In this document: positions 1,258-44,068 of the stretch, piece after piece | How positions within the stretch are numbered: the stretch's first letter is position 1 | Layout of the letters: each line of letters opens with the position of its first letter | DNA from: an uncultured bacterium | Lineage (GTDB): Bacteria > Bacillota > Clostridia > Oscillospirales > Oscillospiraceae | DNA: 64,000 bases | Direction: 5' to 3' | Assembly: GCA_947383145.1 (NCBI GenBank) | Contig: CANDCH010000001.1 | Span: forward strand, 248,001-312,000 | The notes under the pieces: generated by a model | Database searches by the model: none | Told to the model about the DNA's origin: nothing | What the model saw: the letters and a program-made list of their open reading frames with translations, nothing else | Translations under genes and position numbers: made by a program

Positions 1258-1331
1258 GTCTGGTGCTCCTTTCATCTCATTTCTGGCTTGGGGCCCCGGG
1301 GCGATGCTCCGCCCCGGGGGTTGCTGGCGAT

Positions 1332-1360
1332 ATATTAAACCTGCCCAATTTTCTTTTCAA
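1332..1360 (-). promoter_or_regulatory. Promoter of the GH3 lipoprotein gene
   Basis: Reading the minus strand, TTGAAA (1360-1355), a 17-nt spacer and TAATAT (1337-1332) form a sigma-A type promoter about 75 nt upstream of the GH3 start. The -10 element is weak (4 of 6), as expected for an activated promoter. Confidence 0.6.
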
Positions 1361-1486: not shown

Positions 1487-2209
1487 TTATGCCCCGCCCA
1501 GAATGGACAGGTATTTGCTTCTGACCTCGGCGGCCTTGCTGCGCCCCACGGGGAGCTGGGTCCCGTCCAGCAGGGTGACGGCGGAGGCGCTGATGCGCTG
1601 GATGCAGCGGTAATTGACCAGATAGCCCTTGTGGATGCGGATGAAGCTGTGGGGCTGGGTGGCGGCCTCCAGTTTTTCCATGGTCATTTTCACCTCGGCG
1701 GGCTCCTTCTGCCCCTCCAGGTAGAGCAGCTGGTAGTTGCGGCTGCCCTCAATGTAGCGGATCTGGCTGCTTTTCAGGGCGAGAAGCCCCGAACGGGTCT
1801 GGAACTCCACATAGTCCCCCCGCTCGTCCCGGGAGCAGGTCTTGACGTACAGCTCCACCACGGCGGCAATGTCGTTGAGAAAGTTGCTTTTGCGCACAAA
1901 GCCCAGGGGCTGTACCAGAAAGGACTCGAACACCCGGCTCTCCGCCTCGGAGACGTAGACGATCTGGGTGTCGTTCCCCTGGGCCCGGAGCCTTTTCCCC
2001 ACGGCGATGCCGTCCATCCCAGGCATCTCGATGTCCAGCAGTATGATATGAAACCGGGTCTGCTCCATGGCCTGGAGCAGGGCCTTTCCGGAGGCAAACC
2101 GCTGGATATCGGTGTGGATGCCCTTCTCCTGAAACGCCGATTCCGCCGCCCCGGCAATCACCGGCAGGGCCTTCGCGTCGTCGTCGCACAGGGCGATCTT
2201 GATTTTCAT
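1487..2209 (-). CDS. LytTR-family response regulator
   Basis: A 240-residue protein. The N-terminal receiver (about 1-120) has the acidic pair in ALCDDD and the phospho-acceptor Asp in LLDIEMPGMDG. The C-terminal LytTR DNA-binding domain (about 135-238) has the family's IRYIEGSRNY and SFIRIHKGYLVN segments. By family it is phosphorylated by its partner kinase and binds 21-bp-spaced direct repeats as a dimer. The start ATG overlaps the kinase stop as ATGA, so the two are translated together. Repeats matching this type of site occur in the divergent promoter at 3642-3713 and before the GH3 gene, which are its likely targets. The kinase-regulator order is the reverse of the second LytTR pair at 41735-43788. 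Confidence 0.92.
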   Translation of the reverse strand: MKIKIALCDDDAKALPVIAGAAESAFQEKGIHTDIQRFASGKALLQAMEQTRFHIILLDIEMPGMDGIAVGKRLRAQGNDTQIVYVSEAESRVFESFLVQPLGFVRKSNFLNDIAAVVELYVKTCSRDERGDYVEFQTRSGLLALKSSQIRYIEGSRNYQLLYLEGQKEPAEVKMTMEKLEAATQPHSFIRIHKGYLVNYRCIQRISASAVTLLDGTQLPVGRSKAAEVRSKYLSILGGA

Positions 2210-3558
2210 AGCCTCTCCTCCACCGTCATGTCCAGCAGCAGTTTGGCCACAAACATCCCGCCCGACAGGCCAAATTCCGCGCAGCCGTTGTATTTTTCCG
2301 CCACTTTTGAGATGATGCGGGTGCCGTACCCGTGGAGACGGTCGTCCCCCTTGGTGGTGCGCAGCCCCCGTCCGGACCGGGTCAATTCCGTCCGGCCGGT
2401 GGTGTTCCGGCACAGAATAAACAGGTAGCTCTTCTGGGGGTAGATCTCCAGCCGGAGGGAGGCGTCCGCCCGCCCCGCCCGGAGCAGGCGGGCGCACTCC
2501 TCAACGGCGTTGTCCAGCAGGTTGGTGAGCACCGCGCACAGGTCGTCCTCGCTGAAGGGGAGCACCGGGGGCACCACCAGCTGATGGGTGAACGCCACAC
2601 CCTCCTTTCTGGCCTTGGCGAATTCCATGTTCAAGATCGTATTGACCGGGCGGTTGCCGCAGTCGATGAATTGCCCCAGCTGGGGCAGCAGGTGCTCGGA
2701 GGACTGGCGGAAATACTCCTCCAGCTCCCCATACCGCCGCTGGGACAGCAGAATCTGCATATAGGCGTACTGGTTTTTCAGGTCGTGGCGGATGCCGCGC
2801 AGGTCGTCCAGATTGTCAGACATCATCCGGGCCAGCTCCCGCTCGCTGTACAGCCGCTGCCGCTCCGCCTGGAGCTCCACAATCGCGTTCTGCTCCGCGC
2901 ACATGTCGTTCATCCCCTGCATGGCGGCCACCACCATGCCCAGGATGAACACATAGGCCACCAGGAAGGTGACGGTGATGCGGTAGTCCTGGCCGGCCCA
3001 AAGCACCTCCAGCACGTTCATGGCAATGATGCAGCCGTCGCCAACGAGAATGGCGGCCAGCCCGCTGGGGGGTACCTGCTCATAATTCTGGAGGCTGAAG
3101 GCGTGGAGGTAGGCCGCCAGGGGCAGAGTCAGAAGCAGCACCACGGTGCGCACCGCCCCCTCGGCGGCCCCTGAGGAGAGGAACTCCCCCACCAGGAAGC
3201 TGCACTGGCCGGCGATGGAGTAGATGGTGCAGCTCCCCGCCAGCATGGAGCACCACATCACCAGCTTGGACTTCTTCTGGCTGCCGGAGCAGAAACGCAG
3301 CAGCAGCGCCCCCACCGCCCCGTGGAGAAACATCTGGGGAAGCAGGTACAGCCGGTAGCCCCCCGCCAGCGCGAGAAGAATCAGCCCCGCCATGATAAAC
3401 GCCGCCGCAAGCAGCGTCTCCACCGCCGGGCGCACAGGACGCCTCCAGCTCCACACGGGCCCGCAGCACAGCACCGCCCAGGACAGGGCCCGGATGGCGA
3501 TGGCCGCAAACCAGGCAAAATCCATGATTTTGAGGGCAAATTGAACATTCTCCGCCAT
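2206..3558 (-). CDS. GHKL sensor histidine kinase (AgrC/NatK-type), partner of the LytTR regulator
   Basis: A 450-residue protein. The first half (about 10-225) holds six or seven hydrophobic segments with short loops, typical of AgrC-like sensors. Then come a helical linker, an H-box with the phosphorylated His in GIRHDLKNQ, and a GHKL ATPase domain with the N-box LTNLLDNAVEE and a glycine motif ending GYGTRIISKV. Starting at ATG 3558 leaves a 226-nt divergent intergenic region shared with the AMP-ligase operon. No AgrB/AgrD-type peptide system is nearby, so the signal is unknown; an envelope or cell-wall cue is a guess from the neighbours. Its stop overlaps the regulator start by ATGA. Confidence 0.9.
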   Translation of the reverse strand: MAENVQFALKIMDFAWFAAIAIRALSWAVLCCGPVWSWRRPVRPAVETLLAAAFIMAGLILLALAGGYRLYLLPQMFLHGAVGALLLRFCSGSQKKSKLVMWCSMLAGSCTIYSIAGQCSFLVGEFLSSGAAEGAVRTVVLLLTLPLAAYLHAFSLQNYEQVPPSGLAAILVGDGCIIAMNVLEVLWAGQDYRITVTFLVAYVFILGMVVAAMQGMNDMCAEQNAIVELQAERQRLYSERELARMMSDNLDDLRGIRHDLKNQYAYMQILLSQRRYGELEEYFRQSSEHLLPQLGQFIDCGNRPVNTILNMEFAKARKEGVAFTHQLVVPPVLPFSEDDLCAVLTNLLDNAVEECARLLRAGRADASLRLEIYPQKSYLFILCRNTTGRTELTRSGRGLRTTKGDDRLHGYGTRIISKVAEKYNGCAEFGLSGGMFVAKLLLDMTVEERL

Positions 3559-3601
3559 TGCGGTCCCATCCTCCCCCGCCGCGGTCGTAATTCCTGCAAA
3601 C

Positions 3602-3784: not shown

Positions 3785-5272
3785 ATGAATCCTGTCGTCC
3801 ACACACTTTGCTGGTATCTCCACAGCCTGACGCTGGAAAAACCCGGCCTTCCTCTGCTGGGGGACGAGACCGGCTGGCTCACCGCGGAGCGGGTGGAGCG
3901 CTTTGTGGAGGCCGGGGCGGGCCTGCTGTACGCCGGCGGGCTCAGGCCGGGAACGCCGGCGGTGCTGCCCGCCCGCCGCAGCGTGGTCACGGCGCTGGCC
4001 CTGCTGTGCCTCCAGCGCATTGGGGCGCCCGCCATTCTCACCGACCCCAGGGAGGACCCCCGGCGGGCGCTGGACGGCTGCGCGCCGCCGCTGTCCGCTC
4101 CCTTCCGGCTGGAGGCGGGGGGCGAGCTCCGCCGCCCCGCCGTGCTGCTCTTTCGGGCGGGGGAGCCCGCTCCCCTGTGCCTCCCCCTGGCCTCCTCCGG
4201 CTGCACTCCCGTCCCGGATTGCGACGATCCCGCCGCCCCCGCCTTTTACCTCTTCACCTCCGGCTCCTCCGGGCGGAAAAAGGCGGTGATCCTCAGCCAG
4301 GGCAATCTGGTGAGCAATCTGCTGGACTCCGCCCCCTTGGGCGGTTACTCGGAGGACGACGTTGCCCTGGGCGCGCTGCCCCTGGACCACGTATTCGGCC
4401 TTGCCCTGCTCACCGGGGCCATTGTGCTGCGCCACCGGCTGTACCTCACCGCCGCCACCGCGCCGGAGGCGCTGCTCCAGATCATTGCCCGGGAAAAAAT
4501 CACCCGGATGAACGGCGTGCCCTCCCTCTATCTGACCATGGCGAAAAAGGTCCGGGCCGGGGAGGCGCGCACCCTCCGGGTGGGGTACATCGGCGGCGCG
4601 CCCTGGACGGCGGAGCAGTTCCGGCACATCGAGTCCGCCCTGGGCATGACCCTGGTTCCGGTGTACGGCATGAGCGAGTGCGTCGGCATCTCCTGCGCCT
4701 GCTGGCGGTCGCCCCAGGCAGAGCGCATGGCCGGGGTGGGGCTCTTCTACCCCGCCAACCAGGGGAAAATCCTCCGGGAGGACGGCGGGGAAGCCCTTCC
4801 CGGCGAGGAGGGGGAGGTGTGTGTGCGCGGCCCCATGCGGATGCTGGGCTATCACGACCCGGCCCAGACCGCCCGGGCCGTGGACGCGGAGGGTTTTCTC
4901 CACACCGGCGACCTGGGCTATGTGGACGGGCGGGGCGTCCTCCGCCTCACCGGGCGGAAAAAGGATGTCATCATCCGCAACGGGGTGAACCTGTCCCCCC
5001 GGCGCATTGAGGAGGCGCTGCTCTCCCTGCCCGGGGTGGGGGCGGCGGCGGCGGTGGGCCTGCCCGACGAGCGCTGCGGCGAGCTGCCCTGGGCGGCGGT
5101 GGTGTGCGGGGAGGACGCCCTGTCCCGGCTGATGGGCGGCCTGAGCGCCCGCCTGTCCAAAAATGAGCTGCCCGAGGGCATCCTGCGGGTGGACGCCCTG
5201 CCCATGACCGGCTCCGGCAAGCCGGACAAGCAGGCGGTGAAGGAGCTGATCCGGCAATGGCGGAAGGCGTGA
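3785..5272 (+). CDS. AMP-dependent acyl/aminoacyl ligase (DltA-like), first gene of a dlt-like operon
   Basis: A 495-residue ANL-superfamily adenylating enzyme. The ATP-binding A3 motif TSGSSGRKK is at residues 158-166; VYGMSEC, HTGDLGY and GRKKDVIIRNG are the A5, A7 and hinge motifs, and the C-terminal catalytic Lys lies in TGSGKPDK. By family it activates an acid as the adenylate and passes it to a phosphopantetheine thiol. The neighbours (MBOAT protein, SGNH proteins) point to activation of an acyl or aminoacyl group for export, as DltA does with D-alanine. No carrier-protein gene is adjacent, so the acceptor thiol must be encoded elsewhere or be CoA. It starts after AAGGAG and is divergent from the kinase operon across the repeat-bearing promoter. 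Identity as D-Ala ligase is not established. Confidence 0.8.
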   Translation: MNPVVHTLCWYLHSLTLEKPGLPLLGDETGWLTAERVERFVEAGAGLLYAGGLRPGTPAVLPARRSVVTALALLCLQRIGAPAILTDPREDPRRALDGCAPPLSAPFRLEAGGELRRPAVLLFRAGEPAPLCLPLASSGCTPVPDCDDPAAPAFYLFTSGSSGRKKAVILSQGNLVSNLLDSAPLGGYSEDDVALGALPLDHVFGLALLTGAIVLRHRLYLTAATAPEALLQIIAREKITRMNGVPSLYLTMAKKVRAGEARTLRVGYIGGAPWTAEQFRHIESALGMTLVPVYGMSECVGISCACWRSPQAERMAGVGLFYPANQGKILREDGGEALPGEEGEVCVRGPMRMLGYHDPAQTARAVDAEGFLHTGDLGYVDGRGVLRLTGRKKDVIIRNGVNLSPRRIEEALLSLPGVGAAAAVGLPDERCGELPWAAVVCGEDALSRLMGGLSARLSKNELPEGILRVDALPMTGSGKPDKQAVKELIRQWRKA

Positions 5273-5490
5273 TCCTCCAGCTGCCCCAGGCGCTGCTGCT
5301 GTACGGGGCCGCCCTGTTTTTCTGCCTGTTTGAGCGGCGGTACCGGGCCACCCGGGGGGCGTTCTTCCTGCTGTCCGCGGCGCTGGCCCTGGGGGCCAGC
5401 GCCTATGCCCTCATTTCAGGCGCGGGATTGTGGGAGACGGCGGCGGCGCTGCTCCCCTTCCTGCTGCTGAACCTGGGGGTGGGGGTATGA
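5257..5490 (+). CDS. Small two-helix membrane protein in the dlt-like operon
   Basis: A 77-residue protein with hydrophobic segments near residues 8-24 and 33-75 around a short basic stretch (ERRYRATR). It overlaps the ligase end by 16 nt and the MBOAT start by ATGA, so it is translationally embedded in the operon. It lacks the D-S-L phosphopantetheine motif and is therefore not the missing carrier protein. Its position between ligase and MBOAT recalls small membrane partners of dlt operons (DltX), but sequence similarity to DltX is not evident. Function unknown; a partner or chaperone of the MBOAT protein is the simplest guess. Confidence 0.75.
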   Translation: MAEGVILQLPQALLLYGAALFFCLFERRYRATRGAFFLLSAALALGASAYALISGAGLWETAAALLPFLLLNLGVGV

Positions 5491-6947
5491 ACTTCAACTC
5501 CGGGGCCTTCCTCCTCTTTCTCCCGGCGGCGGCGGCGGTGTACTGGCTGCTGCCCCATCGGGCGCGGCGGTGCTGGCTGCTGGCGGCGTCCTATTTTTTC
5601 TACATGTACGCCAACCCCGCCCTCATCCTTCTGCTGCTGGCCTCCACGGCGGTGGACTACTGCTGCGGCCGGGGAATCGAGCGTTTCCGGGGACGGCGGG
5701 GCGTCACGCGGGCGTTTCTGCTGGTGAGCGTGTGCGTCAATCTGGGGCTTCTGTTCACCTTTAAATACTTCGACTTTTTCGCCGGGACGGTGAACGGCCT
5801 GTGCGCCGCCGCCGGAATTCCCTACCGGGCGCCGGAGCTGGGGCTGATCCTGCCGGTGGGCATCTCCTTCTACACCTTCCAGACCATGAGCTATACCATC
5901 GACGTGTACCGGGGAGATTTTCCCGCAGAACGGGACCTGGTCTCCTTCGCCCTTTACGTCGCCTATTTTCCCCAGCTGGTGGCGGGGCCCATCGAGAGCC
6001 CGGGGAACCTGCTGCCCCAGCTCAAGGCGGAGCACAGGCCCAGCTGGGACGACTTCACCGCCGGGGTCCGCCTGCTGCTGTGCGGGTTTTTCCGCAAGTG
6101 CGCGGTGGCGGACTTCTGCGGGCTCTATGTCAACGCCGTGTTTTCCTCGGTGGAGGAGGCCAACTCCCTGGCCGTCTGCTGCGCCGGGGGGCTGTTCTGC
6201 ATCCAGATGTACTGCGATTTCGCCGGCTATTCGGAGATCGCCGCCGGGTGCGCCCGGCTGATGGGGGTGCGGCTCATGCGCAACTTTGACCGGCCCTATC
6301 TGGCCCAGAGCTACACCGAGTTCTTCCGCCGCTGGCACATCAGCCTGAACCGCTGGTTCACCAGCTACGTCTACATCCCCCTGGGGGGCGGGCGAAGGGG
6401 AAAGGGGCGCAAGCTGCGCAATATTCTCATCGTGTTCGCCCTGTGCGGCCTGTGGCACGGCGCCCGGTGGACCTATGTGCTGTGGGGGCTGTACGCCGCC
6501 TTCTGGCTGTGCCTGGAGAGCCTGCTGGACATCAACAGCCGGTTCGGCCCCGCCTGGGACTGTCCCCTGGGCCGCCTGACCCGCCGGTGCGTGATGTTCC
6601 TCATCTTCATCCCCGCGGCGCTGCTGTTCCGGGCGGAGTCGCTGGAGCAGCTGGGGGTGGTCTTCCGCCGCCTGTTTACCGGCTGGGGTCTGGGCGGGGC
6701 CTACCTCCAGGCGGCGCTGGACCAGCTGGGGCTGAGCCCCCTGTCCCTGGTCCAGCTGGTCCTGTGCCTGACGGCCATGACCAAGCTGTACGCCTGGGGG
6801 CGGTACGGCCTGCCCGCCGCCAAAACGGACAGCCAGTCCGCCGCGCGGCTGTGCGCCTGCGTGTATCTGACGGCGGCGGCGGCGCTGTGCTGGCTGGCCC
6901 TGCTCCAGACCCAGGACGCGGCCATCTTCGCCTATTTTCAGTTTTAG
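5487..6947 (+). CDS. MBOAT-family membrane O-acyltransferase (DltB/AlgI-like)
   Basis: A 486-residue multi-spanning membrane protein. The MBOAT signature is clear: PVGISFYTFQTMSYTIDVYRG, AGPIE, RRWHISLNRWF with His284, and CGLWHGARWTYVLWG with His324, the catalytic His of the family. By family it moves an activated acyl group across the membrane onto an extracytoplasmic acceptor, working with an SGNH partner (DltD, AlgJ/AlgX, PatB). Two SGNH proteins follow directly. The ATG at 5487 overlaps the preceding stop, giving tight coupling. Whether the group is D-alanine, acetyl or another acid is not visible; closeness to a ligase rather than an acetyl-CoA donor favours a DltB-like role. Confidence 0.9.
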   Translation: MNFNSGAFLLFLPAAAAVYWLLPHRARRCWLLAASYFFYMYANPALILLLLASTAVDYCCGRGIERFRGRRGVTRAFLLVSVCVNLGLLFTFKYFDFFAGTVNGLCAAAGIPYRAPELGLILPVGISFYTFQTMSYTIDVYRGDFPAERDLVSFALYVAYFPQLVAGPIESPGNLLPQLKAEHRPSWDDFTAGVRLLLCGFFRKCAVADFCGLYVNAVFSSVEEANSLAVCCAGGLFCIQMYCDFAGYSEIAAGCARLMGVRLMRNFDRPYLAQSYTEFFRRWHISLNRWFTSYVYIPLGGGRRGKGRKLRNILIVFALCGLWHGARWTYVLWGLYAAFWLCLESLLDINSRFGPAWDCPLGRLTRRCVMFLIFIPAALLFRAESLEQLGVVFRRLFTGWGLGGAYLQAALDQLGLSPLSLVQLVLCLTAMTKLYAWGRYGLPAAKTDSQSAARLCACVYLTAAAALCWLALLQTQDAAIFAYFQF

Positions 6948-6958
6948 GGGGCGTCCGC

Positions 6959-8743
6959 ATGAAAAAAGTGCTTCTGGCCGCGCTGTTCCTCCTGTGTCTG
7001 GTCCCCTTGTCCGCCTGCGGGGAGGAGGACGCCCCGGATACGGTGCTGGTCTTTTTGGAGGAGTCCTCCGGCTTCGCCGTGGAACGCAACGGCCTGCGGG
7101 TGCCCGTGGGGGAGGACGCGGTATTCGCCCTCACGCTGGACCGGGGCTGGTCCCTGGCGGACACCGATTACCCCGGGCAGGCGGATATCAGCGTGTCCGG
7201 CCGCGCCGCCACCCTCACCCTCCGGGAGGTCCAATATCCCGCCCGGGTCCGGCTGAGCCTGACCAGCCGGTACTGCACCGTGACCTATGACGCCAACGGC
7301 GGGCAGCCCGTCCCCGGCGGAGCCCTCCAGGCCTCCAAAACCTATGACCTGACTCAGCGGGCCCGGCCCAACACCGCGCTGGGCACGGATCTGTTCGTCC
7401 GGGAGGGCTATACCCTCGCCGGCTGGAACACAGCGCCCGACGGCTCCGGCGACGCCGTGGGGCTGGGGAGCCGGGTAACCGTGACCGGCGGGGCCCTCAC
7501 CCTGTACGCCCAGTGGGCCAGGTGGACCGATGAGGCGGACTTCACCTGGCGGCGGACGGAGGACGGGGTGGCCGTCACCGGCTGCCAAGGGAAGGACGGC
7601 GTGGTGGTGATCCCCGAACGGCTGGGCGGGCTGCCGGTGGTCGCGGTGGAGGCCGGGGCCTTCGACGGCTGCGCCGCCCAAGAGCTCATCTTTCCGCCCA
7701 CCCTGCGGGAGATCGAGCCGGGAGCCTTTCGGAATTGCGCCGTCCGCACCGTCACCCTGTTCGACAATATCGAGGCCGTCAGCGACAGCAGCTTTGAGAA
7801 CTGCCCCAGCCTGAACACCCTGCGCGTCAACGCTGTAGAGGCCCCCTTCGGCTACGCGTGGCGGAAGGAGAGCTGCTACGCCGACAAGGTGGACCGGCTC
7901 ATCCTCACCCAGGGGCGGAAGCGGGCGGTGTTCTACGGCGGCTGCTCCATGTGGTACAACCTGGACGGCCTTCAGATGCAGCGGGCCCTGGGGGAGGGCT
8001 ATGCCGTGGTCAACCTGGGGCTGAACGGCACGGTGAACTCCCCGGTGCAGATGCAGATTCTGGGGGCGTTCCTGGAGGAGGGGGATATTGTGATCCACAC
8101 CCCGGAGCTGTCCAGCCGCCAGCAGCTGCTCCTCCAGACCGCCATGGGGGAGCATGACGGCTCGCTGTGGTGCGGCATCGAGAACAACTACGACCTCTTC
8201 GCCCTGGTGAACCTGACCACCGTGGACGGCGCGCTGGACAGCCTGTGCCGCTACCTGTCCCGGAAGGACGCCCGAACCTCCTACGGTCAGTCCTACCGGG
8301 ACGAGCAGGATCAGCCCTATACGGACCAATTCGGCTGCGTCCCTTTTTTCCGCTCCGGCACGGCGGATGACCTGCCCGACCGGGTCTATCTGGACCCGGC
8401 GTTCCTGGACGGCGGGGCCCTGGCCCGGCTGGGGGAGTACTACGCCTGGTTTCAGTCCAAGGGGGCGCGGGTGTACCTGTCCTGCGCCTGCGTGAATCTC
8501 GACGCCGTGCCGGAGGAGCAGCGGGGAAACGTTCCGCTGATGGACCGCCTCCTCCGGGAGGCGGCGGGAAAGATGGAGGGGGCGGCCCTCATCTCCTCCC
8601 TGGAGGACTATCTGTACCGGAATTCCGACTTTTTTGATACCAATTACCACCTGGTCACCCAGGCGGCGCAAAAAAACACCGCCCTGTGGCTCCGGGACCT
8701 GCGGGCCCAGATGGAGCGGGACGGCGTGTGGGAGGGCGTATGA
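6959..8743 (+). CDS. Lipoprotein with InlB-type repeat, BspA-type LRR and C-terminal SGNH-like domain
   Basis: A 594-residue protein. The signal peptide ends in lipobox LSAC (Cys20). Residues about 105-190 resemble an InlB B-repeat (VTYDANGG, GYTLAGWNTAPDGSG, LTLYAQW). Residues about 210-290 are BspA/LRR_5-type leucine-rich repeats (GAFDGC, GAFRNC, SSFENCPSL). From about 320 the fold resembles DltD/AlgX-type SGNH proteins: FYGGCSMWYN at 325-334 and D560/H564 in FFDTNYHLV, the Asp-x-x-x-His end motif. Aligned with the next gene (GGSN), the expected nucleophile is Cys329, with Ser330 next to it. It probably sits on the outer face of the membrane and may position the acceptor or take part in acyl transfer. 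It starts 11 nt after the MBOAT gene. Confidence 0.8.
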   Translation: MKKVLLAALFLLCLVPLSACGEEDAPDTVLVFLEESSGFAVERNGLRVPVGEDAVFALTLDRGWSLADTDYPGQADISVSGRAATLTLREVQYPARVRLSLTSRYCTVTYDANGGQPVPGGALQASKTYDLTQRARPNTALGTDLFVREGYTLAGWNTAPDGSGDAVGLGSRVTVTGGALTLYAQWARWTDEADFTWRRTEDGVAVTGCQGKDGVVVIPERLGGLPVVAVEAGAFDGCAAQELIFPPTLREIEPGAFRNCAVRTVTLFDNIEAVSDSSFENCPSLNTLRVNAVEAPFGYAWRKESCYADKVDRLILTQGRKRAVFYGGCSMWYNLDGLQMQRALGEGYAVVNLGLNGTVNSPVQMQILGAFLEEGDIVIHTPELSSRQQLLLQTAMGEHDGSLWCGIENNYDLFALVNLTTVDGALDSLCRYLSRKDARTSYGQSYRDEQDQPYTDQFGCVPFFRSGTADDLPDRVYLDPAFLDGGALARLGEYYAWFQSKGARVYLSCACVNLDAVPEEQRGNVPLMDRLLREAAGKMEGAALISSLEDYLYRNSDFFDTNYHLVTQAAQKNTALWLRDLRAQMERDGVWEGV

Positions 8744-10185
8744 GACGGCGTATCATTCAAATCGGGGCCGCGCTGCTCCTGCTGGCCATTCTGCCGGCGG
8801 CGCTGCTTTGGGCGGAGCTGTCCCTGCCCGCCTGCTATCAGGACAGCTACTATGCCCAGCTGCCCGCGCTGTACCGCCGCCTGACGGACAGCCCGGGGAA
8901 GCGGCTCATCCTGGTGGGGGGCAGCAACGTGGCCTTCGGGGTGGACGGGAACCTTTTGGAGGAGCTGCTGGTCCGGCACGGATACGAGTACACGGTGTGT
9001 CCCTTCGGACTGTACGCCGCCGTGGGGACCGGCGCCATGCTGGAGCTGTCCCAGGACCGGCTGCGGGAAGGGGACGTGGTGGTGCTGGCCCTGGAGCCCG
9101 CCAGCGAGGCGCTGTCCGGCTATTTCGGCGCGTCCGCCTTCTGGAAGTGCGCCGAGGAGGCCCCGGAGCTGCTGGCGGCGGTGGGCCCCGCCCACCGGGC
9201 GGCGCTGGCGGGCAATTACGCCGGTTTCCTCCAGGAGCGGACCGCCATCTGCGCCAGCGGCCAATTTCCCCGGGGGGAGGGGGCCTATGCCAAAGCCGCC
9301 TTTGACCGGGACGGCAATATGAGCTTTTACCGGGCGGGGAACCTCATGCCCCTGGGCTGGGACACCGGCGCGCCGGTGGACCTGGCCGCGGCGTCCGTGT
9401 CGCCGGACTTTGCCCGGCAGGTAAACGAGTACTGCCGGACGGCGGAGGCGCGGGGGGCACAGGTGTACCTGAGCTTCAGCCCGGTGAACCGCTCCGCCCT
9501 GACGGGGGACCCGGAGGAGGACGCGGCGGCCTGTTTCCGCACCTGGCTGGACGCCTTTGACTGCCCCATTATCAGCGATCCCAACCGCTACATTCTGGAC
9601 AGCGGCTGGTTTTACGACTCCAATTTTCACCTGAATTCCGCCGGGGCCGCGCTGCGCACCGCCCTGCTGGCGGAGGACCTGCTGGCCCAGCTCGGCTGCT
9701 ACGAGGCGCTGGACCTCGCCCCGCCCGATATGCCCGCGCCCATTGCGCAGACGGATGTGGACGCGCCGGACGGCGGCTGGTTTTCCTTTTCCGCCGTGGG
9801 CGGGGACAGCGGCGGATATATGGTATCCGGCCTGACCCAGGCGGGACTGCGGCAGGTCCGGCTCACGGTCCCCGCCAGTTTTGATGGAAAGCCGGTGGTT
9901 GGAATTGAACCCGGCGCGCTGGACGGCTGCCTGGAGCTGGAGGAGCTGCGCCTGCCGGAAACCATTGAGAGCCTGCCGGACGGGGCGTTTTCAGGCTGCC
10001 CCAACCTGACCCGGTTGGTGCTGGAGCACACCCGGCGGCTGTGCCGCGTCACCGGACACGCCTTTGACGGCGCTCCTCAGGTGCGCATTTATGTCCCCGC
10101 CGCCGCCTACCCCCTTTACCGGGACGGCGCCGGCTGTGAGGAAAATCCGTGGGCAGGGCTGTTGGAGCGCGTCAACCAATATTAA
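8740..10185 (+). CDS. Membrane-anchored SGNH (DltD/AlgX-like) protein with C-terminal BspA-type LRR
   Basis: A 481-residue protein. One N-terminal membrane segment (about 5-25) anchors an extracytoplasmic SGNH domain (about 50-330): LVGGSN with the nucleophilic Ser62, and D293/H297 in FYDSNFHLNSAG. Residues about 355-430 carry BspA/LRR_5-type repeats (GALDGCLELEELRLPE, GAFSGCPNLTRL). The domain order is therefore the mirror image of the preceding gene. ATGA overlap with that gene implies matched production. By analogy with DltD it would take the exported acyl group and place it on a wall polymer or surface glycan; the LRR may bind that partner. The ATG at 8740 is chosen for the overlap. It is the last gene of the operon, convergent with purC. 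Confidence 0.82.
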   Translation: MRRRIIQIGAALLLLAILPAALLWAELSLPACYQDSYYAQLPALYRRLTDSPGKRLILVGGSNVAFGVDGNLLEELLVRHGYEYTVCPFGLYAAVGTGAMLELSQDRLREGDVVVLALEPASEALSGYFGASAFWKCAEEAPELLAAVGPAHRAALAGNYAGFLQERTAICASGQFPRGEGAYAKAAFDRDGNMSFYRAGNLMPLGWDTGAPVDLAAASVSPDFARQVNEYCRTAEARGAQVYLSFSPVNRSALTGDPEEDAAACFRTWLDAFDCPIISDPNRYILDSGWFYDSNFHLNSAGAALRTALLAEDLLAQLGCYEALDLAPPDMPAPIAQTDVDAPDGGWFSFSAVGGDSGGYMVSGLTQAGLRQVRLTVPASFDGKPVVGIEPGALDGCLELEELRLPETIESLPDGAFSGCPNLTRLVLEHTRRLCRVTGHAFDGAPQVRIYVPAAAYPLYRDGAGCEENPWAGLLERVNQY

Positions 10186-16569: not shown

Positions 16570-18009
16570 ATGAAAAAACGCGCCGCCGTTCTGCTACTGG
16601 CCCTGCTGATGGCCGCCAGCTTCAGCACCACCGCCATGGCCGCCCCCGGCCAGTTCTCACCCTTCGCCGACCTTCCCGTGGACCACTGGTCCTTCCCCTA
16701 TGTCTACGACCTGTACACAAAGGGCGTGGTGGGGGGCTACCCCGACGGCACCTTCCAGCGCCAGGGCAATGTCACCTGGGGGGAGGCCTTCAAGCTGATC
16801 CTGCTGTCGGTGGGGGTGGAGGAGCCGGAGCGGGACCCGGAACAGCACTGGGCCTATCCCTATATCCAGCTGGCCCTGGACAACCAGCTGGTGTGGTCCT
16901 TTGACGAGGAATCCCTGGACGAGCCTCCCACCCGGCTGAACGTTGCCCGGATGGCCGCCCGGGCCCTGGACTTCACCGACATCTCCGGCGAGAGCCCCTA
17001 CATCGACTGCGGCGACGGCTACGCGGTGGAGCTGTTTGAGAAGGGCATTATGGAGGGCACCGAGGAGCCGGACGGAAACCGCTGGTTCTACCCTGACCAG
17101 CCCATCTCCCGGGAGGAGATGGCGGCGGTGGTGTGGCGGATGATGAACGTGGACGCCGCCCAGGGGATGATGCGCTTCAGCAACTATTGGCTGGACGTGC
17201 TGCCGGACGTGCCCCCCGTCTCCTACGCCCCGGAGCAGTTCTCTGTGGACGAACAGGGCAGGGCCTCCTATTCCGGCGGGTATTTTGTCCGGGGCGTGGA
17301 CGTGTCCGGCCACAAGCAGGACATCGACTGGAACGCCGTGGCCCTGGACGGCATCGACTTCGCCATCATCCGGGCGGGCAACCGCACCTACGGCTCCGGG
17401 CTGCTCTTTGAGGACTCCTATTTCCACCGCAATATGCAGGGGGCCATCGCCGCCGGACTGGACGTGGGGGCCTACTTCTTCTCCAACGCCGTCACCGTGG
17501 AGGAGGCCGTCGAGGAGGCCGACATGTTCCTGGCCATGGTGGAGCCCTACCGGCAGTACGTCACCTACCCCGTGGTGTGCGACTGGGAGTACCTGGGGGG
17601 CAAGAATTCCAGGGCCTACGGCGTGGACGCCAAGGTGATCACGCAGTGTATCGCCGCTTTCTGCCAGCGGGTGGCCGACGCGGGCTATCAGCCCATGCTC
17701 TATTTCAACGACTACTGCGGCTATGTGAAAATGGACCTGTCCAAGCTCACCCAGTTCGACTTCTGGTACGCCGAGTACGCCGACGCCCCCGCCTGTATCT
17801 ATGACTTCCAGATGTGGCAGTACTCGTCCAAGGGCAAGGTGGCGGGCATCAGCTCCGACGTGGACATGAACCTGTGCTTTGTGCCCTATCCCAAGCAGGA
17901 GGACTCCGCACCCCCGCCCTCTGAGGGCCTCCCCTCCGAACTCCCTCTCCCCTCAGAATCCCTGCCCCCGGACCCCTTGATCCAGCCTCAGCCCTACCCC
18001 GGCGTTTGA
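16570..18009 (+). CDS. SLH-domain protein with GH25 muramidase domain
   Basis: A 479-residue protein. The signal peptide ends near MAAP (residues 1-25). Residues about 30-215 hold three S-layer homology repeats (FADLPVDHWSFPYVYDLYTKGVVGGYPDGTF, a second around HWAYPYIQLAL, a third around YPDQPISREEMAAV). Residues about 240-445 form a GH25 lysozyme domain: RGVDVSGHKQDIDWNAV, FAIIRAG, the acidic pair in VCDWEYLG, and QMWQYSSKGKVAGI near the end. The last 30 residues are Pro/Ser-rich. It should bind the wall through the SLH part and cut the glycan strand, a wall-remodelling enzyme. It starts at ATG 16570 after AAGGAG; the 16454-16569 stretch upstream shows no gene. Confidence 0.9.
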   Translation: MKKRAAVLLLALLMAASFSTTAMAAPGQFSPFADLPVDHWSFPYVYDLYTKGVVGGYPDGTFQRQGNVTWGEAFKLILLSVGVEEPERDPEQHWAYPYIQLALDNQLVWSFDEESLDEPPTRLNVARMAARALDFTDISGESPYIDCGDGYAVELFEKGIMEGTEEPDGNRWFYPDQPISREEMAAVVWRMMNVDAAQGMMRFSNYWLDVLPDVPPVSYAPEQFSVDEQGRASYSGGYFVRGVDVSGHKQDIDWNAVALDGIDFAIIRAGNRTYGSGLLFEDSYFHRNMQGAIAAGLDVGAYFFSNAVTVEEAVEEADMFLAMVEPYRQYVTYPVVCDWEYLGGKNSRAYGVDAKVITQCIAAFCQRVADAGYQPMLYFNDYCGYVKMDLSKLTQFDFWYAEYADAPACIYDFQMWQYSSKGKVAGISSDVDMNLCFVPYPKQEDSAPPPSEGLPSELPLPSESLPPDPLIQPQPYPGV

Positions 18010-38381: not shown

Positions 38382-41300
38382 TCAGGCGGCGCTCTTTTCC
38401 TTTTTCCAGCGGCGCACGATGGCCACCACGCCCCAGGCGGTCAGACCCGCAGCGACCACGGCCTCGCCGATGAGGATGAACCAGTAGTTGGCGAAGGGCA
38501 GCTCACCCACGGACACGCCGTGGACGATGCCGTTCATGGCGTTGGAGTTCACGGTGGTGTACAGGATGTGCTTCACCGCCTGACGGGCAAAATACTGGGA
38601 GGCGGGGTTGCCCATATCCAGCGGCGCGTCCACCTCGTAGCCGGTGAGCTTCAGGTCGCCGCCGGCCCGGACGCACTGTTCGGTGTCCATGTAGCCGCCG
38701 TTGTCGTAGTCGGTGATCACGGTGCCGTCAAAGCCCCACTCGTCCCGGAGCACGGCGGTGAGCAGGCTGTAGTTGCCGCCCGCCCAGGTGCAGCCGATGC
38801 GGTTGAAGGAGGACATCACGGCCATGACGGCGGGAATCTCCACCTGGGCCTCGGTGAAGGACTTGGACCCCTCGTCGTAGGTCTGGGTCTTGATGGTGGT
38901 GGTCCCCCGGTCCTCAATGCAGGTCTGGAAGGGCTTCAGGTAGAGCTCGCGGATGGCCTGCTCGTTGGAGAAGGTAACCAGGCCGTTGCGGTAGTCCTCC
39001 TGGTCGTTGAGGGCAAAGTGCTTGATGTAGGCGTACACGCCCTTCTCGGCGCAGGCCACGGAGGCCTCCAGGGCCATTTCGCCGGACATGAAGCCGTCCT
39101 CGGAGTAGTACTCGAAGTTACGGCCGGCGAAGGGGGTGCGGTGAATGTTCATGGCGGGGGCGTACCAGCCGGAGATGATGCCGGTGTACTGGTGGTTGCC
39201 CCAGTTGCCGTCGGCGGCCAGGGCGTCCTCGCCCACATAGTAGCCGTGGTAGTAGGAGTTCTGGCGGTCCCAGCTGGCGGCGATGTTGGCGGCGCAGGGA
39301 TAGGTGATGGAGTAGGGCTCGTGGGTGACGCCGCCCTCGTTCAGGCCGGAGGGGCCGTCGAAGTCGATGGCCCGGGGCTTGCTGGTGTTGGCGTTGGCCA
39401 GGGTCTGATAGCCGCCGTTGCGGATGAGGTCGTGGATCTCGGTGGTGGTCATCTGGTCGATGAGGGCGTCCCAGCCGCCCTCGGCGTCCACCTCGTCGAA
39501 GCTGCGGCCCCGGAAGTCGATGAGCTCCAGGTCGCCGCTCTTGCCGTACTGGCCGGCCTTGGCGGCGGCCTCCTCCTCGGTCATGGGGGTGAGGGACGCG
39601 CCCACGCCCTTGGCCCGGATGGCGTCCCGGATGGCGTCGGAGGCGGGCACCTCCCAGGTCAGGCCGTTCTTCTCACTGTAGCCGCTGGGGCGCTTGCTGT
39701 CCTGGCTGCCGTGGGGCTTGGGGAAGGTGCCGGTCCAGTCCTGCCGGGTGAGGTACTGGCTCCGGGCGGTGAACTCGTCGGACACCGCGTGGTCGAACTG
39801 GTTGGTCACGGCCGCGCCGGTGAGGGACTTGGCGTAGGTCTCGTTGTCCACGCCGCCGTTTCCGCTGAAGCTGTAGGTCCACTTGCCCACGAAGGAGGCG
39901 TCCGCCCCGCCGAACAGGGGCTCCACCTCCTGCCCGCCGAAGGCCAGGAAGTTGTCGGCGGCGGCGTGGGCGTTGTCCGCGGCGGTGAGCAGGTAGTCCC
40001 CCGCCTCCAGGATGTAGGTCTTGGCCTTCACGTCGTCATAGGAAACGAAGTCCTTCCGGTTGACGGTGACGGTGACGGTCTCGGACTGGCCGGGCTGGAT
40101 CTCGCCGGTCTTCTCAAAGCCCACCAGGGAGACGGCGGACTTCTCCACGTAGTTGGTCTTGTCGTAGTCGGTGTAGGGGGCGTTGAGGTAGACCTGTACC
40201 ACGTCCCGGCCGGCCACGCTGCCGGTGTTCTTCACGGTGACCTGGATCTGGATGTCGCCGTTGGCGTCCATCTGGCTCATCTGGAAGCCGGACCACTCAA
40301 AGGTGGTGTAGGAGATGCCGTAGCCGAAGGGATACTGCACCGTGGCGGCGTAGTCGTAGTCCCCGGCGCTGCCCTGGCCCAGAACCTTATCCACGTACCG
40401 GGTCTCGTAGTACTTGTAGCCCACGTAGATGCCCTCGTCGTAGAACACCGCGGCGCTCACGTCCTCGCCGCCGTTGACCAGCATCATCTCGCCCATGTTC
40501 TGCATGGCGGGGGAGGAGAAGGCGTCGTAGGCGAAGGTGTCCACCAGGTGGCCGGAGGGGTTGATGTTGCCGCTGAGCACGTCGGCGATGGAGCGGCAGG
40601 TGTCGCCGCCGGCGCCGGCGGCCCACAGCACGGCGCTGATGTTGGGGAAGTCCTTCACCCAGCCCAGCTCGAAGGCGTTGTTGGTGTTGACCACAATGAT
40701 GACGTTGTCAAAGTTGTCGTTCAGGTACTGGATAACCCCCAGCTCCACGGAGTCGGGCTCCAGGTAGTGCTTCTCCCGGTCCTCGGCGGAGGCGGCGAAG
40801 TCGCCCATGTAGCGGCCCAGGTCCCGGCCCTCGCCGCCGGTGCGGGAGAAGAAGAACACAGGGGTGGTGCCCTCCGCCTCGGCCTTGGCGGCGTCGGGGA
40901 TGGCGGACACGGGGGCCTCATGGATGGACCAGTCCTCGGCGAAGCCGTACATCACCGCGCCGCCGCCCCGGGTGTAGGACCCGTGGTTGTCGCTGTAGAA
41001 CTTCCACAGCGCCTCGTTCACGGAGAAGCCCTGCTCGGTGAGGGCGGTCTTCATGTCGCTGGAGATGGTGGACACGCCGGAACCGGTGCCGCCGGCCAGC
41101 AGGTCCACGGAGGAGGCGGAGAACAGGCTCAGCTTGGAGCCCGCCGCCACGGGCAGGCCCTTGCCGCCCTCGGCCTTATTATAGAGGAGCACAAAGCCCT
41201 CGGCGCCCGCCTTGCGGGTGTAGGCCTGCTCGGCGGCCTGGAGCTCCTTGGAATCGGCGATATCGCGCTTGTAGTAGTCGGCGTCCACTCCGGCGGGCGC

Positions 41301-41477
41301 TCCGCCGGTGCTGAACTGGGTCTCGCCAAAGATATCCCGGAGCACCAGGTCATAGGAAGAGGTGGTGATGACGGGGAGCGCGACGGAGAATGCCAGAAGC
41401 GCCGCCAGCAGCGTCGCCACAATGGCGGTAAAGGTCTTCGCGCTCAGTTTCTTTTTCGTTCCTTTCTCTTTTGCCAC
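38382..41477 (-). CDS. Large membrane-anchored, domain-permuted GH3 glycoside hydrolase
   Basis: A 1031-residue protein. Membrane segments lie near residues 15-37 and 995-1018. The GH3 C-terminal alpha/beta sandwich comes first (about 85-390, with PFGYGISYTTFEWSGF at its end), then a fibronectin-like domain (about 400-490), and the catalytic barrel last (about 660-960). The barrel has AYIKHFALNDQED and the nucleophile Asp923 in GTVITDYDNGGYMD. Swapped domain order is known in a subset of GH3 enzymes. Anchors at both ends should hold the enzyme against the outer face of the membrane. The GTG start at 41477 follows GGAGG by 7 nt. It lies behind the second LytTR/GHKL pair but has its own promoter after a terminator. 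Confidence 0.88.
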   Translation of the reverse strand: MAKEKGTKKKLSAKTFTAIVATLLAALLAFSVALPVITTSSYDLVLRDIFGETQFSTGGAPAGVDADYYKRDIADSKELQAAEQAYTRKAGAEGFVLLYNKAEGGKGLPVAAGSKLSLFSASSVDLLAGGTGSGVSTISSDMKTALTEQGFSVNEALWKFYSDNHGSYTRGGGAVMYGFAEDWSIHEAPVSAIPDAAKAEAEGTTPVFFFSRTGGEGRDLGRYMGDFAASAEDREKHYLEPDSVELGVIQYLNDNFDNVIIVVNTNNAFELGWVKDFPNISAVLWAAGAGGDTCRSIADVLSGNINPSGHLVDTFAYDAFSSPAMQNMGEMMLVNGGEDVSAAVFYDEGIYVGYKYYETRYVDKVLGQGSAGDYDYAATVQYPFGYGISYTTFEWSGFQMSQMDANGDIQIQVTVKNTGSVAGRDVVQVYLNAPYTDYDKTNYVEKSAVSLVGFEKTGEIQPGQSETVTVTVNRKDFVSYDDVKAKTYILEAGDYLLTAADNAHAAADNFLAFGGQEVEPLFGGADASFVGKWTYSFSGNGGVDNETYAKSLTGAAVTNQFDHAVSDEFTARSQYLTRQDWTGTFPKPHGSQDSKRPSGYSEKNGLTWEVPASDAIRDAIRAKGVGASLTPMTEEEAAAKAGQYGKSGDLELIDFRGRSFDEVDAEGGWDALIDQMTTTEIHDLIRNGGYQTLANANTSKPRAIDFDGPSGLNEGGVTHEPYSITYPCAANIAASWDRQNSYYHGYYVGEDALAADGNWGNHQYTGIISGWYAPAMNIHRTPFAGRNFEYYSEDGFMSGEMALEASVACAEKGVYAYIKHFALNDQEDYRNGLVTFSNEQAIRELYLKPFQTCIEDRGTTTIKTQTYDEGSKSFTEAQVEIPAVMAVMSSFNRIGCTWAGGNYSLLTAVLRDEWGFDGTVITDYDNGGYMDTEQCVRAGGDLKLTGYEVDAPLDMGNPASQYFARQAVKHILYTTVNSNAMNGIVHGVSVGELPFANYWFILIGEAVVAAGLTAWGVVAIVRRWKKEKSAA

Positions 41478-41618
41478 AAGAATCCCTCCAAATAAAAGAA
41501 ATAATTTGGGTTTTGCCGGGCGGTGTCCGCCGGCGCGACGCCCCGGCTCCTCGCGCCTGTGGTCCGCATCCCCCCTCGTTCCAATGTGCTTGTGCGCCTG
41601 CGTGCGCGTCTATTCCCT

Positions 41619-41647
41619 AATGTACCGTGCCGCCGGGGCGGTTTCAA
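41619..41647 (-). promoter_or_regulatory. Promoter of the permuted GH3 gene
   Basis: Minus strand TTGAAA (41647-41642), 17 nt, AATGTA on plus = TACATT (41624-41619). The -35 sequence is identical to that of the GH3 gene at 1-1257. Confidence 0.65.
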
Positions 41648-41652
41648 TGCGG

Positions 41653-41688
41653 CAAAACTTTTTTGGTCGGTTCCGCCACTTTTTTTGC
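41653..41688 (-). promoter_or_regulatory. Direct repeat at 21-bp spacing before the GH3 promoter, candidate LytTR site
   Basis: ACTTTTTTGG starting at 41657 and ACTTTTTTTG starting at 41678 are 21 bp apart, directly upstream of the -35 element. On the minus strand they read as AAAAAAGT cores, compatible with the A/T-rich 5' half of LytTR consensus sites. The sequence differs from the GTTYGTCC type of the first locus, as expected for a different regulator. Confidence 0.4.
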
Positions 41689-41697
41689 ATAAAAGCA

Positions 41698-41727
41698 GGG
41701 GAGCGTCCGTTAATGTGGACACTCCCC
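41698..41727 (-). terminator. Terminator after the second GHKL kinase gene
   Basis: An 11-bp stem (GGGGAGTGTCC and partner on the minus strand, one G-T pair) followed by TGCTTTTATG. It separates the kinase from the GH3 gene. Confidence 0.65.
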
Positions 41728-41734
41728 TCACAAA

Positions 41735-43069
41735 TTAACCTGTTTTTTCCACATTTTCCACAATTGGAAGCAGAATGGACAGCCGGTAAATTCCCCCGCC
41801 GGTCTGGAGCTGGAGGTCCCCGCCGTACTTTTCCGCGAGCATCTTGATGCTCTGCATTCCGAAGCCGTGGAACCGCTTGTCCGCCTTCGTGGTCATGGGC
41901 AGCCCGTGGTCCAGCTCCAGCACGCCGTCGTAGTAGTTCTCCTGGCTGACGATCAGAAAATGGTCCTGGGCGTGGACGGTGAGGGAGATCAGCCGTTTGT
42001 CCGGGTCCTCCAGGCGGTCCACCGCCTCGATGGCGTTGTCCAGAATGTTGCCGAACAGGGCGTAGATGTCGGCGTCCTCCATGAAGCGCAGTCTGGCGCC
42101 GTCCGCCACGCAGGTCAGCACAATCCGCTTGCCCGAGCACATCAGGGACTTGTTGGACAGCACCAGGTCCAGCGCCGCGCACTCCGTCTTGAGCCCGCAG
42201 TCGTAGATGTTCACCAGGCTCTCAAGCTCCCGCAGCTCCTTCTGGCGGCCCAGATCCCCCAGGGCGGCGATCTGGTGCTTGATGTCGTGGCAGCGGATGT
42301 TGATGGCGTCCACCGTCTCCTTTTCCAGGGCGTACCGGCTGCGCTCCGCGTGGAGGAGCTGCTCGGCGATCTGGGCCTTTTTTTCCGACTCCGCCTGGCG
42401 CACCTGGCACATGCTGATGATCAGGGCCAGCAGGGACAGCAGGATGGAGATGATGTTGATGCAGACCATCACCGGCTCGCCGGTGTCCAGCCCCAGTTCG
42501 ATTCGGATCATGGGCTCCAGCACGATGACCACCCCCACCACCACCGCCGCCGTGGCCAGCATGACGTCGCCCTCGCCGCCGTACCGGTCGTACTCCAGAA
42601 TATCGTACCGGCTCCGGAAGGCCAGCACAAAGCACAGGCAGGCCAGCGCGGTAAGTCCGGCCAGAATCAGGTTGTTCACCCAGAGGGGCCGGGGCGGGAG
42701 CAGGGCCCACACCACCTCGGCGGCCCGCTCGGCGCAGTGCTGGAGGATGTAGCCGGTGGTGCCGCCGTAGAGGGCGGCGGTCCAGCCGCAGCGCAGGCAG
42801 AAGCGGAAGGCGGCCACAGTGAGCAGAAAGGTGCCCAGATACTTCACAATGACCAGAACGCCCACGTCGCACACGGGGCTGGGGGCGAACAGCCACTGAT
42901 AGCTGCACCAGTAGGCCCACAGGCACTCCGCCAGCAGGGCGGCGGCCGCGCGGGGGGCGAACAGGGGCCGGGGCTTCAGGCCGTGCCCCGCCACCACGCA
43001 GCAGGCCAGCAGCGCCGCCAGCATGTAGAAGTCCACCCCAAGCAGCGCCCAGAGCTCGCCGGGGGCCAT
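41735..43069 (-). CDS. GHKL sensor histidine kinase, partner of the second LytTR regulator
   Basis: A 444-residue protein with about six hydrophobic segments in the first 215 residues, a coiled linker (VRQAESEKKAQIAEQLLHAERSRY), the H-box NIRCHDIKHQIAAL, and a GHKL ATPase domain with FGNILDNAIEAV and HGFGMQSIKML. The start overlaps the regulator stop as ATGA. A small membrane-embedded sensor without an external domain usually detects peptides or envelope state. No peptide precursor gene was found beside it. Confidence 0.9.
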   Translation of the reverse strand: MAPGELWALLGVDFYMLAALLACCVVAGHGLKPRPLFAPRAAAALLAECLWAYWCSYQWLFAPSPVCDVGVLVIVKYLGTFLLTVAAFRFCLRCGWTAALYGGTTGYILQHCAERAAEVVWALLPPRPLWVNNLILAGLTALACLCFVLAFRSRYDILEYDRYGGEGDVMLATAAVVVGVVIVLEPMIRIELGLDTGEPVMVCINIISILLSLLALIISMCQVRQAESEKKAQIAEQLLHAERSRYALEKETVDAINIRCHDIKHQIAALGDLGRQKELRELESLVNIYDCGLKTECAALDLVLSNKSLMCSGKRIVLTCVADGARLRFMEDADIYALFGNILDNAIEAVDRLEDPDKRLISLTVHAQDHFLIVSQENYYDGVLELDHGLPMTTKADKRFHGFGMQSIKMLAEKYGGDLQLQTGGGIYRLSILLPIVENVEKTG

Positions 43070-43788: not shown

Positions 43789-43804
43789 AGAATCACCCTT
43801 TTTT

Positions 43805-43833
43805 ATCATACCGAAAACAGAGGGAAATGTCAA
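43805..43833 (-). promoter_or_regulatory. Promoter of the second LytTR/GHKL operon
   Basis: Minus strand TTGACA (43833-43828), 17 nt, TATGAT (43810-43805). The leader before the ATG at 43788 is only about 10 nt. The rest of the 43789-44068 intergenic stretch carries the divergent promoter at 43981 and no gene. Confidence 0.8.
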
Positions 43834-43980
43834 TTTGCTCCCTGCCGCCGCAACGTTTTCGGTCGCTTTCGCCCCGTATTCTGCAATATACGCCAAAACA
43901 TCCGGCCGGCGGGGCGCTCCGCCGGACCCGCAGGGCAGGGATATTGAATTCCGAATTTGTGCAAATCTCATAAGCAGGCA

Positions 43981-44009
43981 TTGACAAACCGGCTCAGTCG
44001 TGTTAGTTT
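43981..44009 (+). promoter_or_regulatory. Promoter of the acyl-CoA dehydrogenase fusion gene
   Basis: TTGACA (43981-43986), 17 nt, TAGTTT (44004-44009). Confidence 0.7.
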
Positions 44010-44068
44010 TGCAGTAGGAAAACGATACCACCGCCCAGTCATTTAAATCAACCAAAGGAGGTTTCCCT

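Follow-up and report, generated by a model that had tools for sequence, protein, structure and literature searches.

A five-gene operon near the start of a 64,000-nucleotide stretch of DNA from an uncultured bacterium of the Oscillospiraceae (contig CANDCH010000001.1 of assembly GCA_947383145.1, positions 248,001 to 312,000; referred to hereafter as the window) is predicted from its sequence to be a branch of the MBOAT–SGNH kind of envelope acyltransferase, since it displays the features of that kind and lacks those of a Dlt system. We consider it probable that the operon specifies a carrier-independent machine comparable to PatA/PatB and AlgI/AlgJ/AlgX, in this branch fed by a ligase. The five co-directional genes (positions 3785–10185) encode the ligase, a small membrane protein, the MBOAT and two SGNH-type proteins, SGNH1 and SGNH2, both bearing leucine-rich repeats (LRRs). 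The published systems are cited from PMC12148441 and PMC9487903, both represented here by excerpts.

3785..5272 (+), acyl-CoA/aryl-CoA-type ligase (AMP-binding), 495 residues; PF00501 157 bits, PF13193 47 bits
5257..5490 (+), small membrane protein, 77 residues, two hydrophobic segments; conserved neighbour directly 5' of the MBOAT
5487..6947 (+), MBOAT acyltransferase, 486 residues; PF03062 109 bits, over cut-off
6927..6944 (+), FAYFQF (FXYXXF), predicted C-terminal acyl-shuttle motif of the MBOAT; role from PMC12148441
6959..8743 (+), SGNH1, 594 residues: predicted lipoprotein with InlB/Flg_new repeat and BspA-type LRR, then SGNH domain
7016..7018 (+), SGNH1 lipobox Cys20 (LSAC); invariant in 9/9 close SGNH1 proteins
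7649..7828 (+), SGNH1 LRR_5 region, residues 231–290
7943..7945 (+), SGNH1 Cys329 (GGCS), predicted nucleophile position; aligned by hhalign to SGNH2 Ser62
8648..8650 (+), SGNH1 block V His564; His in 35/36 SGNH1 rows
8740..10185 (+), SGNH2, 481 residues: N-terminal membrane anchor, SGNH domain, C-terminal LRR
8923..8925 (+), SGNH2 Ser62, predicted nucleophile position; Ser in 31/31 SGNH2 rows
9628..9630 (+), SGNH2 block V His297; His in 31/31 SGNH2 rows
9769..10110 (+), SGNH2 LRR domain, about residues 344–457

An earlier, sequence-only reading of this DNA had proposed a probable surface-acylation operon with two LRR-bearing SGNH proteins, a prediction supported here; the pairing is conserved. 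The five-gene set is real, recurring in related loci recovered by homologue searches. Its description as locked by start/stop overlaps holds for three of the four junctions, the MBOAT and SGNH1 genes being separated by 11 nt. The operon lies on contig C1 of a 2.48 Mb, 85%-complete genome and resembles its surroundings in base composition; the families over Pfam cut-off within it are AMP-binding, MBOAT, LRR_5 and Flg_new, and a promoter scan found one candidate against 0.6 expected.

The MBOAT carries its own predicted acyl shuttle

All 30 MBOATs compared end in FXYXXF (FAYFQF in the window) and retain the conserved His (His324 in the window). PatA transfers acetyl from acetyl-CoA to the Tyr of such a C-terminal FXYXXF, from which PatB then takes it, and the non-Dlt MBOAT–SGNH pathways operate with neither a carrier protein nor DltX (excerpts of PMC12148441). 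Searching the host genome revealed a single MBOAT, beside which an exported partner of predicted SGNH fold is encoded (fold from structure models and structure matches, export signals read directly from sequence).

The sequence-only reading had remarked on the lack of a DltC-type carrier. There is indeed none among the five genes, yet this is no anomaly: the MBOAT has a PatA-type FXYXXF shuttle, and PatA-type MBOATs use acyl-CoA and need neither DltC nor DltX, such that absence of a carrier is what this class predicts. No carrier was seen with the module elsewhere either: a carrier motif scan of 39 sources returned 11 matches in frames of 60–160 residues, none of which appears carrier-like by eye. 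The host genome, as assembled, encodes one PP-binding protein, which is probably the fatty-acid acyl carrier protein (ACP) because the adjoining gene reads by eye like rnc.

The 77-residue protein has no match in Pfam or NCBIfam. By automatic detection, an open reading frame of 60–110 residues with at least two hydrophobic segments precedes 23 of 28 MBOATs; a profile also detects the small protein in L117, L118 and L119. The five automatic misses are L033 (where the contig starts inside the MBOAT), L038, L046 (where the protein is visible by eye), L086 and L098. We considered the small protein as a DltX and rejected this, the FXYXXF tail being found on 0/23 small proteins and on the MBOAT instead.

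The ligase resembles acyl- and aryl-acid ligases

On the DltA model TIGR01734, the ligase reaches 29.2 bits against a cut-off of 559.85, so it is not a DltA. Its core motifs are intact across an alignment of ten ligases, all of which share a P-x-x-H motif, which we take to be that of acyl/aryl-CoA ligases, and a C-terminal Lys, read on the same presumption. The closest solved relatives (among the best 60 of 115) are feruloyl-CoA, malonyl-CoA and salicylate-AMP ligases, i.e., acyl- or aryl-acid ligases. Taken together, the DltA score, the shuttle tail of the MBOAT, this kinship with its motifs and the searches of the host genome make a route from ligase to acyl-CoA to MBOAT the simplest reading.

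Two paralogous SGNH proteins bear leucine-rich repeats

Structure models and structure matches predict the SGNH superfamily fold for both exoproteins (SGNH1 was compared with the PDB using VIA-align, the SGNH2 model using Foldseek, whose best enzyme match is DltD 3bma); SGNH esterases are among the matches. SGNH2 starts with a hydrophobic anchor, and sequence profile comparison (hhalign 100%, 287 columns) indicates that the two proteins are paralogues across the whole SGNH domain. Ser precedes His in both, so the circular permutation of AlgJ/AlgX is absent. In L046 (984 residues), L117 and L119, SGNH2 and SGNH1 share one reading frame, which supports their joint action.

Both proteins carry BspA-type LRRs, as had been proposed, before the catalytic domain in SGNH1 and after it in SGNH2. 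The LRR regions match BspA-type LRR structures such as 6mlx and the fragment 2lz0; we know of no BspA-type LRR proteins described as parts of SGNH enzymes. PDB entry 2lz0, a solved 100-residue LRR fragment titled "uncharacterized protein", very probably corresponds to the C-terminal domain of an SGNH2 from this LRR–SGNH family, and a literature search on 2lz0/BACCAP yielded nothing relevant among the matches listed.

Several variants of the SGNH1 arrangement were also observed. SGNH1 is duplicated within one frame in L097 (7917–11591), where Asn replaces the block V His of one copy (L097a); three tandem SGNH1 genes occur in L093 (5212–11391). In L035 (9897–11333), a lipoprotein-like gene product with three Flg_new (InlB B-type) repeats adjoins a lone SGNH1 and a GH3 gene. 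The Pseudomonas loci L040–L042 have an MBOAT followed by a distant SGNH1 homologue (in L041, the one read, block I shows GSG and no LRR is visible) and possibly represent an LRR-free relative of the module.

A proposed relay

We propose that the ligase would make acyl-CoA, and that the MBOAT, perhaps aided by the 77-residue protein, would carry the acyl group across the membrane. The acyl group would land on the Tyr of the FAYFQF tail (as published for PatA and suggested here by the motif), and the tail would pass it to one of the LRR–SGNH proteins. SGNH1 and SGNH2, acting in turn or as a pair by analogy with AlgJ/AlgX, would then place it on an extracellular acceptor; in the branch to which the window belongs, SGNH1 would hold the acyl group on Cys329 instead of a Ser. 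Docking is the most likely task of the LRRs, either of one SGNH protein to the other or of both to the MBOAT or the acceptor; they may also choose the acceptor.

Since glycosidase genes are repeatedly found next to the module, a surface glycan is the likeliest acceptor. A secondary wall polymer, which the organism probably has given its SLH-domain surface proteins, could serve in this role. Two of these proteins are encoded in the window, at 47542–51243 and 16570–18006, one with a Big_3 and one with a GH25 domain.

A cysteine branch linked to the ligase

At the block I nucleophile position, 13 of the 36 SGNH1 rows have Cys and the other 23 have Ser, the window protein (Cys329) thereby departing from the Ser nucleophile of the SGNH superfamily. 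Several observations place the nucleophile position at residue 329. Cys329 aligns without a gap (hhalign) with SGNH2 Ser62, which is Ser in 31/31 SGNH2 rows; the residue that follows varies between Ser, Gly and Asn in Ser-type SGNH1; the Pseudomonas homologue has GSG at block I; and the position sits strand-then-helix in the models of both SGNH1 and SGNH2. Lastly, the aligned ranges of TesA and RGAE put their nucleophiles, which we take to be Ser10 and Ser9, on Cys329 if there is no early gap, while alignment of the SGNH2 model (from residue 51) with CjPatB 8tlb (from residue 127) puts Ser62 on Ser138, provided that the first ~10 aligned residues are ungapped. Ser138 is the numbering given for the CjPatB nucleophile in PMC12148441. 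The neighbouring Ser330 was rejected as an alternative nucleophile in view of the GSG of the Pseudomonas homologue, the aligned ranges just described and the variability of its column, where some Ser-type SGNH1 rows show Gly or Asn and SGNH2 rows show Asn, Gly, Ala, Ser or Asp.

In the SGNH1 tree, the Cys rows form one side of a branch (96/88), requiring a single change; the MBOAT tree (built without the partial L033) requires two changes for the Cys-type rows, with 15% of 200 bootstrap trees giving one. A ligase of this family is linked to the module in every one of the eight genomes in which Cys rows were found. In the window, L032, L118 (from the same genome as L033), L039, L084, L117 and L119 it immediately precedes the small protein; in L114 it follows SGNH1, and for L037 it lies ~11 kb further along the same contig (visible in L115). 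The four Cys rows with no adjoining ligase (L034, L035, L036 and L038) come from genomes G906 and G907, which carry the ligase operon elsewhere (L035 and L038 were placed in these genomes by contig or isolate name). SGNH2 block II co-varies with the subtype, reading C[PS] in 10/10 Cys-type and [VI][ND] in 21/21 Ser-type loci. The Cys change, the ligase link and the SGNH2 change may be one evolutionary event. The block II Cys87 of SGNH2 may be structural rather than catalytic, because Cys137 is also invariant in six close SGNH2 proteins (L117 and L119 have no Cys at this second position, by eye).

A more specific proposal, which we put forward tentatively and hold to be somewhat short of an even chance, is a Cys-based SGNH system in which the ligase provides a non-acetyl acyl-CoA, a thioester forms on Cys329, SGNH2 finishes the transfer and the LRRs choose the acceptor. 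We know of no earlier SGNH transferase with a Cys nucleophile, nor of an MBOAT–SGNH system with its own acyl-CoA supply; this proposal, if true, would to our knowledge provide the first of each. Neither "cysteine nucleophile" nor "serine to cysteine" was found in the literature, among the matches listed, and the word "cysteine" occurs twice in the review PMC9487903, both times about disulfides.

Two other roles can be envisaged for these proteins, both of which we think unlikely. SGNH1 of the Cys branch could be a catalytically dead scaffold retaining only its LRR/binding function, which would accord with loss of Ser in 13/36 rows and with the differing roles of AlgJ and AlgX (PMC9487903); a dead enzyme should drift, however, as the Ser-type copy L097a has done (His to Asn), whereas the Cys is present, and the block V His kept, in 13/13 rows of the branch. 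Alternatively, the two SGNH proteins could be opposed, one a transferase and the other an esterase, so that the modification is tuned in the manner of PatB and Ape1 (a pair described in PMC12148441). Both are predicted SGNH proteins, they differ as Cys versus Ser at the nucleophile position, and SGNH esterases appear among the structure matches, all of which would suit such antagonism; their paralogy over the whole domain and the fusions in L046, L117 and L119 fit a relay better, although neither point is decisive.

Distribution of the module

The LRR–SGNH pairing, when sought in related genomes, proved conserved: of 394 genomes from the order, at least 16 have the core module, made up of the small membrane protein, the MBOAT and the two LRR–SGNH proteins, and it is also present in Lachnospiraceae. 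An SGNH1 profile at 1e-25 matched 17 of the 394, the host included, of which 16 are counted because G429 matches over the LRR only; with at most three candidates scored per genome, this is a lower bound. At 1e-40 across the phylum (398 genomes, at most four candidates scored in each), SGNH2 was found in the host genome only. The family-level SGNH2 search matched 47 of 150 genomes, but only eight (the host included) beyond the LRR, and a search of named genomes gave 12 loci, eight of the module and four distant. L034–L038 are Lachnospiraceae loci from metagenome-assembled genomes, four of the five naming rumen samples in the record title.

Gene order varies. SGNH1 comes first in most Ser-type loci, the order is MBOAT–SGNH1–SGNH2 in the window's branch and MBOAT–SGNH2–SGNH1 in L037, and the outlying L038 MBOAT (38%) lies on the other strand. 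None of four same-genus genomes matched the module; all four have purC, but the 13–19 kb flanking it matched no other frame from the first 23 kb of the window, leaving no empty site for comparison.

Glycosidase and regulatory genes beside the module

The operon is bordered by divergent genes for a two-component pair and two GH3 proteins:

2209..3600 (−), GHKL histidine kinase, divergent neighbour; PF14501; close homologues beside the module in L032 and L037
1490..2233 (−), LytTR response regulator; PF04397 and PF00072; close homologues in L032 and L037
1..1257 (−), GH3 lipoprotein, running out of the window (stop-to-stop frame −1301..1356); PF00933 5e-19
−4449..−1372, divergent from the operon, second, membrane GH3, left of the window

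L037 has the same set in another order (kinase, regulator, GH3 lipoprotein, membrane GH3, ligase). For the kinase, the four same-genus genomes, themselves without the module, each hold only paralogues of 24–28% identity. Of 21 module loci from Oscillospiraceae/Lachnospiraceae, 16 have a GH3 gene nearby (19 matches in 323 kb; L115, which overlaps L037, was left out), as do 2 of 24 control loci (3 matches in 344 kb). The controls comprise four purC loci and 20 contig starts, of which some are short. The corresponding Fisher p of 3.4e-6 is too small because the loci are related. The GH3 proteins scanned with Pfam mostly have the C-terminal domain first; GH78, GH43, GH2 and MFS_2 genes adjoin some loci.

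Elsewhere in the window (38385–44226, − strand), a second membrane GH3 is accompanied by its own GHKL kinase and LytTR regulator with no acylation module, so GH3 and LytTR pairs exist apart from this operon.

Weighing the evidence

A number of observations weigh against a ligase-fed MBOAT–SGNH machine with a surface glycan as acceptor. No SGNH family exceeds the Pfam cut-off among the SGNH1 and SGNH2 proteins scanned (DUF459 reaches 19.3 bits in L044 against a cut-off of 27.2), nor among 20 further family members, two of which have DUF459 below cut-off; the AlgJ/AlgX family PF16822 (ALGX) matches 1/15 SGNH1, at E 0.26 only, and 0/13 SGNH2. Profile comparison (hhalign) of the SGNH proteins with one DltD gave no significant result, and the SGNH2 model, made from six sequences, has middling confidence (pLDDT, the predicted local distance difference test, of 69.8). 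The block V Asp lies at H-4 in 24/36 SGNH1 and 31/31 SGNH2, where PatB has H-3 (PMC12148441). Ser-type modules showed no adjoining ligase of this family, so the ligase is not essential to the module kind; the statement is limited to this family because Ser-type L089 (100 bits) and L094 have a distant, divergent AMP-binding ligase nearby. The Cys is probably of single origin, and the ligase and SGNH2 links may reflect mere shared ancestry. As for the GH3 context, the profile was built from four of the module loci, GH3 is common (23 matches in the host genome), 13 distant module loci have none nearby, and L033 and L114, also without GH3, stand outside the count, which becomes 16/23 if both are included.

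The GH3 association could also be read as the mark of a module serving glycan catabolism, (de)acylating glycosides of plant or host origin, on which the adjacent GH3, GH78, GH43 and MFS_2 products would act, and not the cell's own envelope. The 16 of 21 loci with GH3 and the GH78, GH43, GH2 and sugar transporter genes beside some of them would suit such a function; an MBOAT with an outward shuttle would add groups, which catabolism should rarely need, and the 13 distant loci lack GH3, and we regard this explanation as improbable.

The operon had also been called "dlt-like", a kinship that did not hold up: a true Dlt-type system, whose ligase would load D-alanine on a carrier encoded elsewhere (e.g., the fatty-acid ACP) for modification of teichoic acid, is very improbable, for although the only NCBIfam match of the MBOAT is DltB, SGNH2 finds DltD 3bma and the genome has one PP-binding protein, the DltB score is 132 bits against a cut-off of 375, the ligase has 29 of 560 bits on DltA and the presumed acyl/aryl-CoA P-x-x-H, DltD (PF04914) gives no match in the host genome (and is present in 2/81 genomes of the phylum), the rnc-like neighbour marks the PP-binding protein as a probable fatty-acid ACP, and the DltX-type tail resides on the MBOAT.

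Relation to known systems

The MBOAT–SGNH reading places the operon closest to several characterized machines and yet apart from each. Like PatA/PatB, the peptidoglycan O-acetyltransferase of Neisseria and Campylobacter, it combines an MBOAT bearing a C-terminal FXYXXF Tyr shuttle with separate predicted SGNH exoenzymes and has no carrier or DltX (PMC12148441); it differs in having two SGNH proteins, each bearing LRRs, along with an additional small membrane protein and, in the window's branch, a dedicated ligase and a Cys at one nucleophile position. The alginate acetylation system AlgI/AlgJ/AlgX likewise combines a single MBOAT with two SGNH-like proteins, whose roles are distinct and successive, but AlgJ and AlgX are circularly permuted (H-S-G-N order), and the excerpts of PMC9487903 mention no LRRs in them. 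PatA1/PatB1 of Bacillus cereus likewise form an MBOAT–SGNH pair in a Gram-positive organism, acting on a secondary cell-wall polysaccharide; these belong to the DHHW family, with KDS and TDHHW motifs in contrast to the GGS/GGC and FYDxNxH seen here, and again the excerpts mention no LRRs (PMC9487903). With the D-alanylation system DltXABCD, the operon shares a ligase, an MBOAT and an SGNH protein encoded together in one operon, and the modelled SGNH2 fold matches DltD; it lacks the carrier, the DltX tail, a DltA ligase and PF04914.

The combination of LRR, SGNH and MBOAT had no match in the literature searched. Nor were the LRR–SGNH pair, the small membrane protein as a partner, the linkage of the Cys branch to the ligase or the GH3/LytTR setting found there, and all of these appear new. 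MBOAT–SGNH machines are known to modify peptidoglycan, alginate, cellulose and wall polysaccharides (PMC12148441). The present module suggests that Oscillospiraceae and Lachnospiraceae of gut and rumen bear a surface modification not covered by the literature found. Its ligase, its two LRR–SGNH enzymes and its natural Ser-to-Cys switch would provide a test of how acyl group and acceptor are chosen and of relay from one SGNH protein to another, for which G500, holding both subtypes (L084 and L085), offers an internal comparison.

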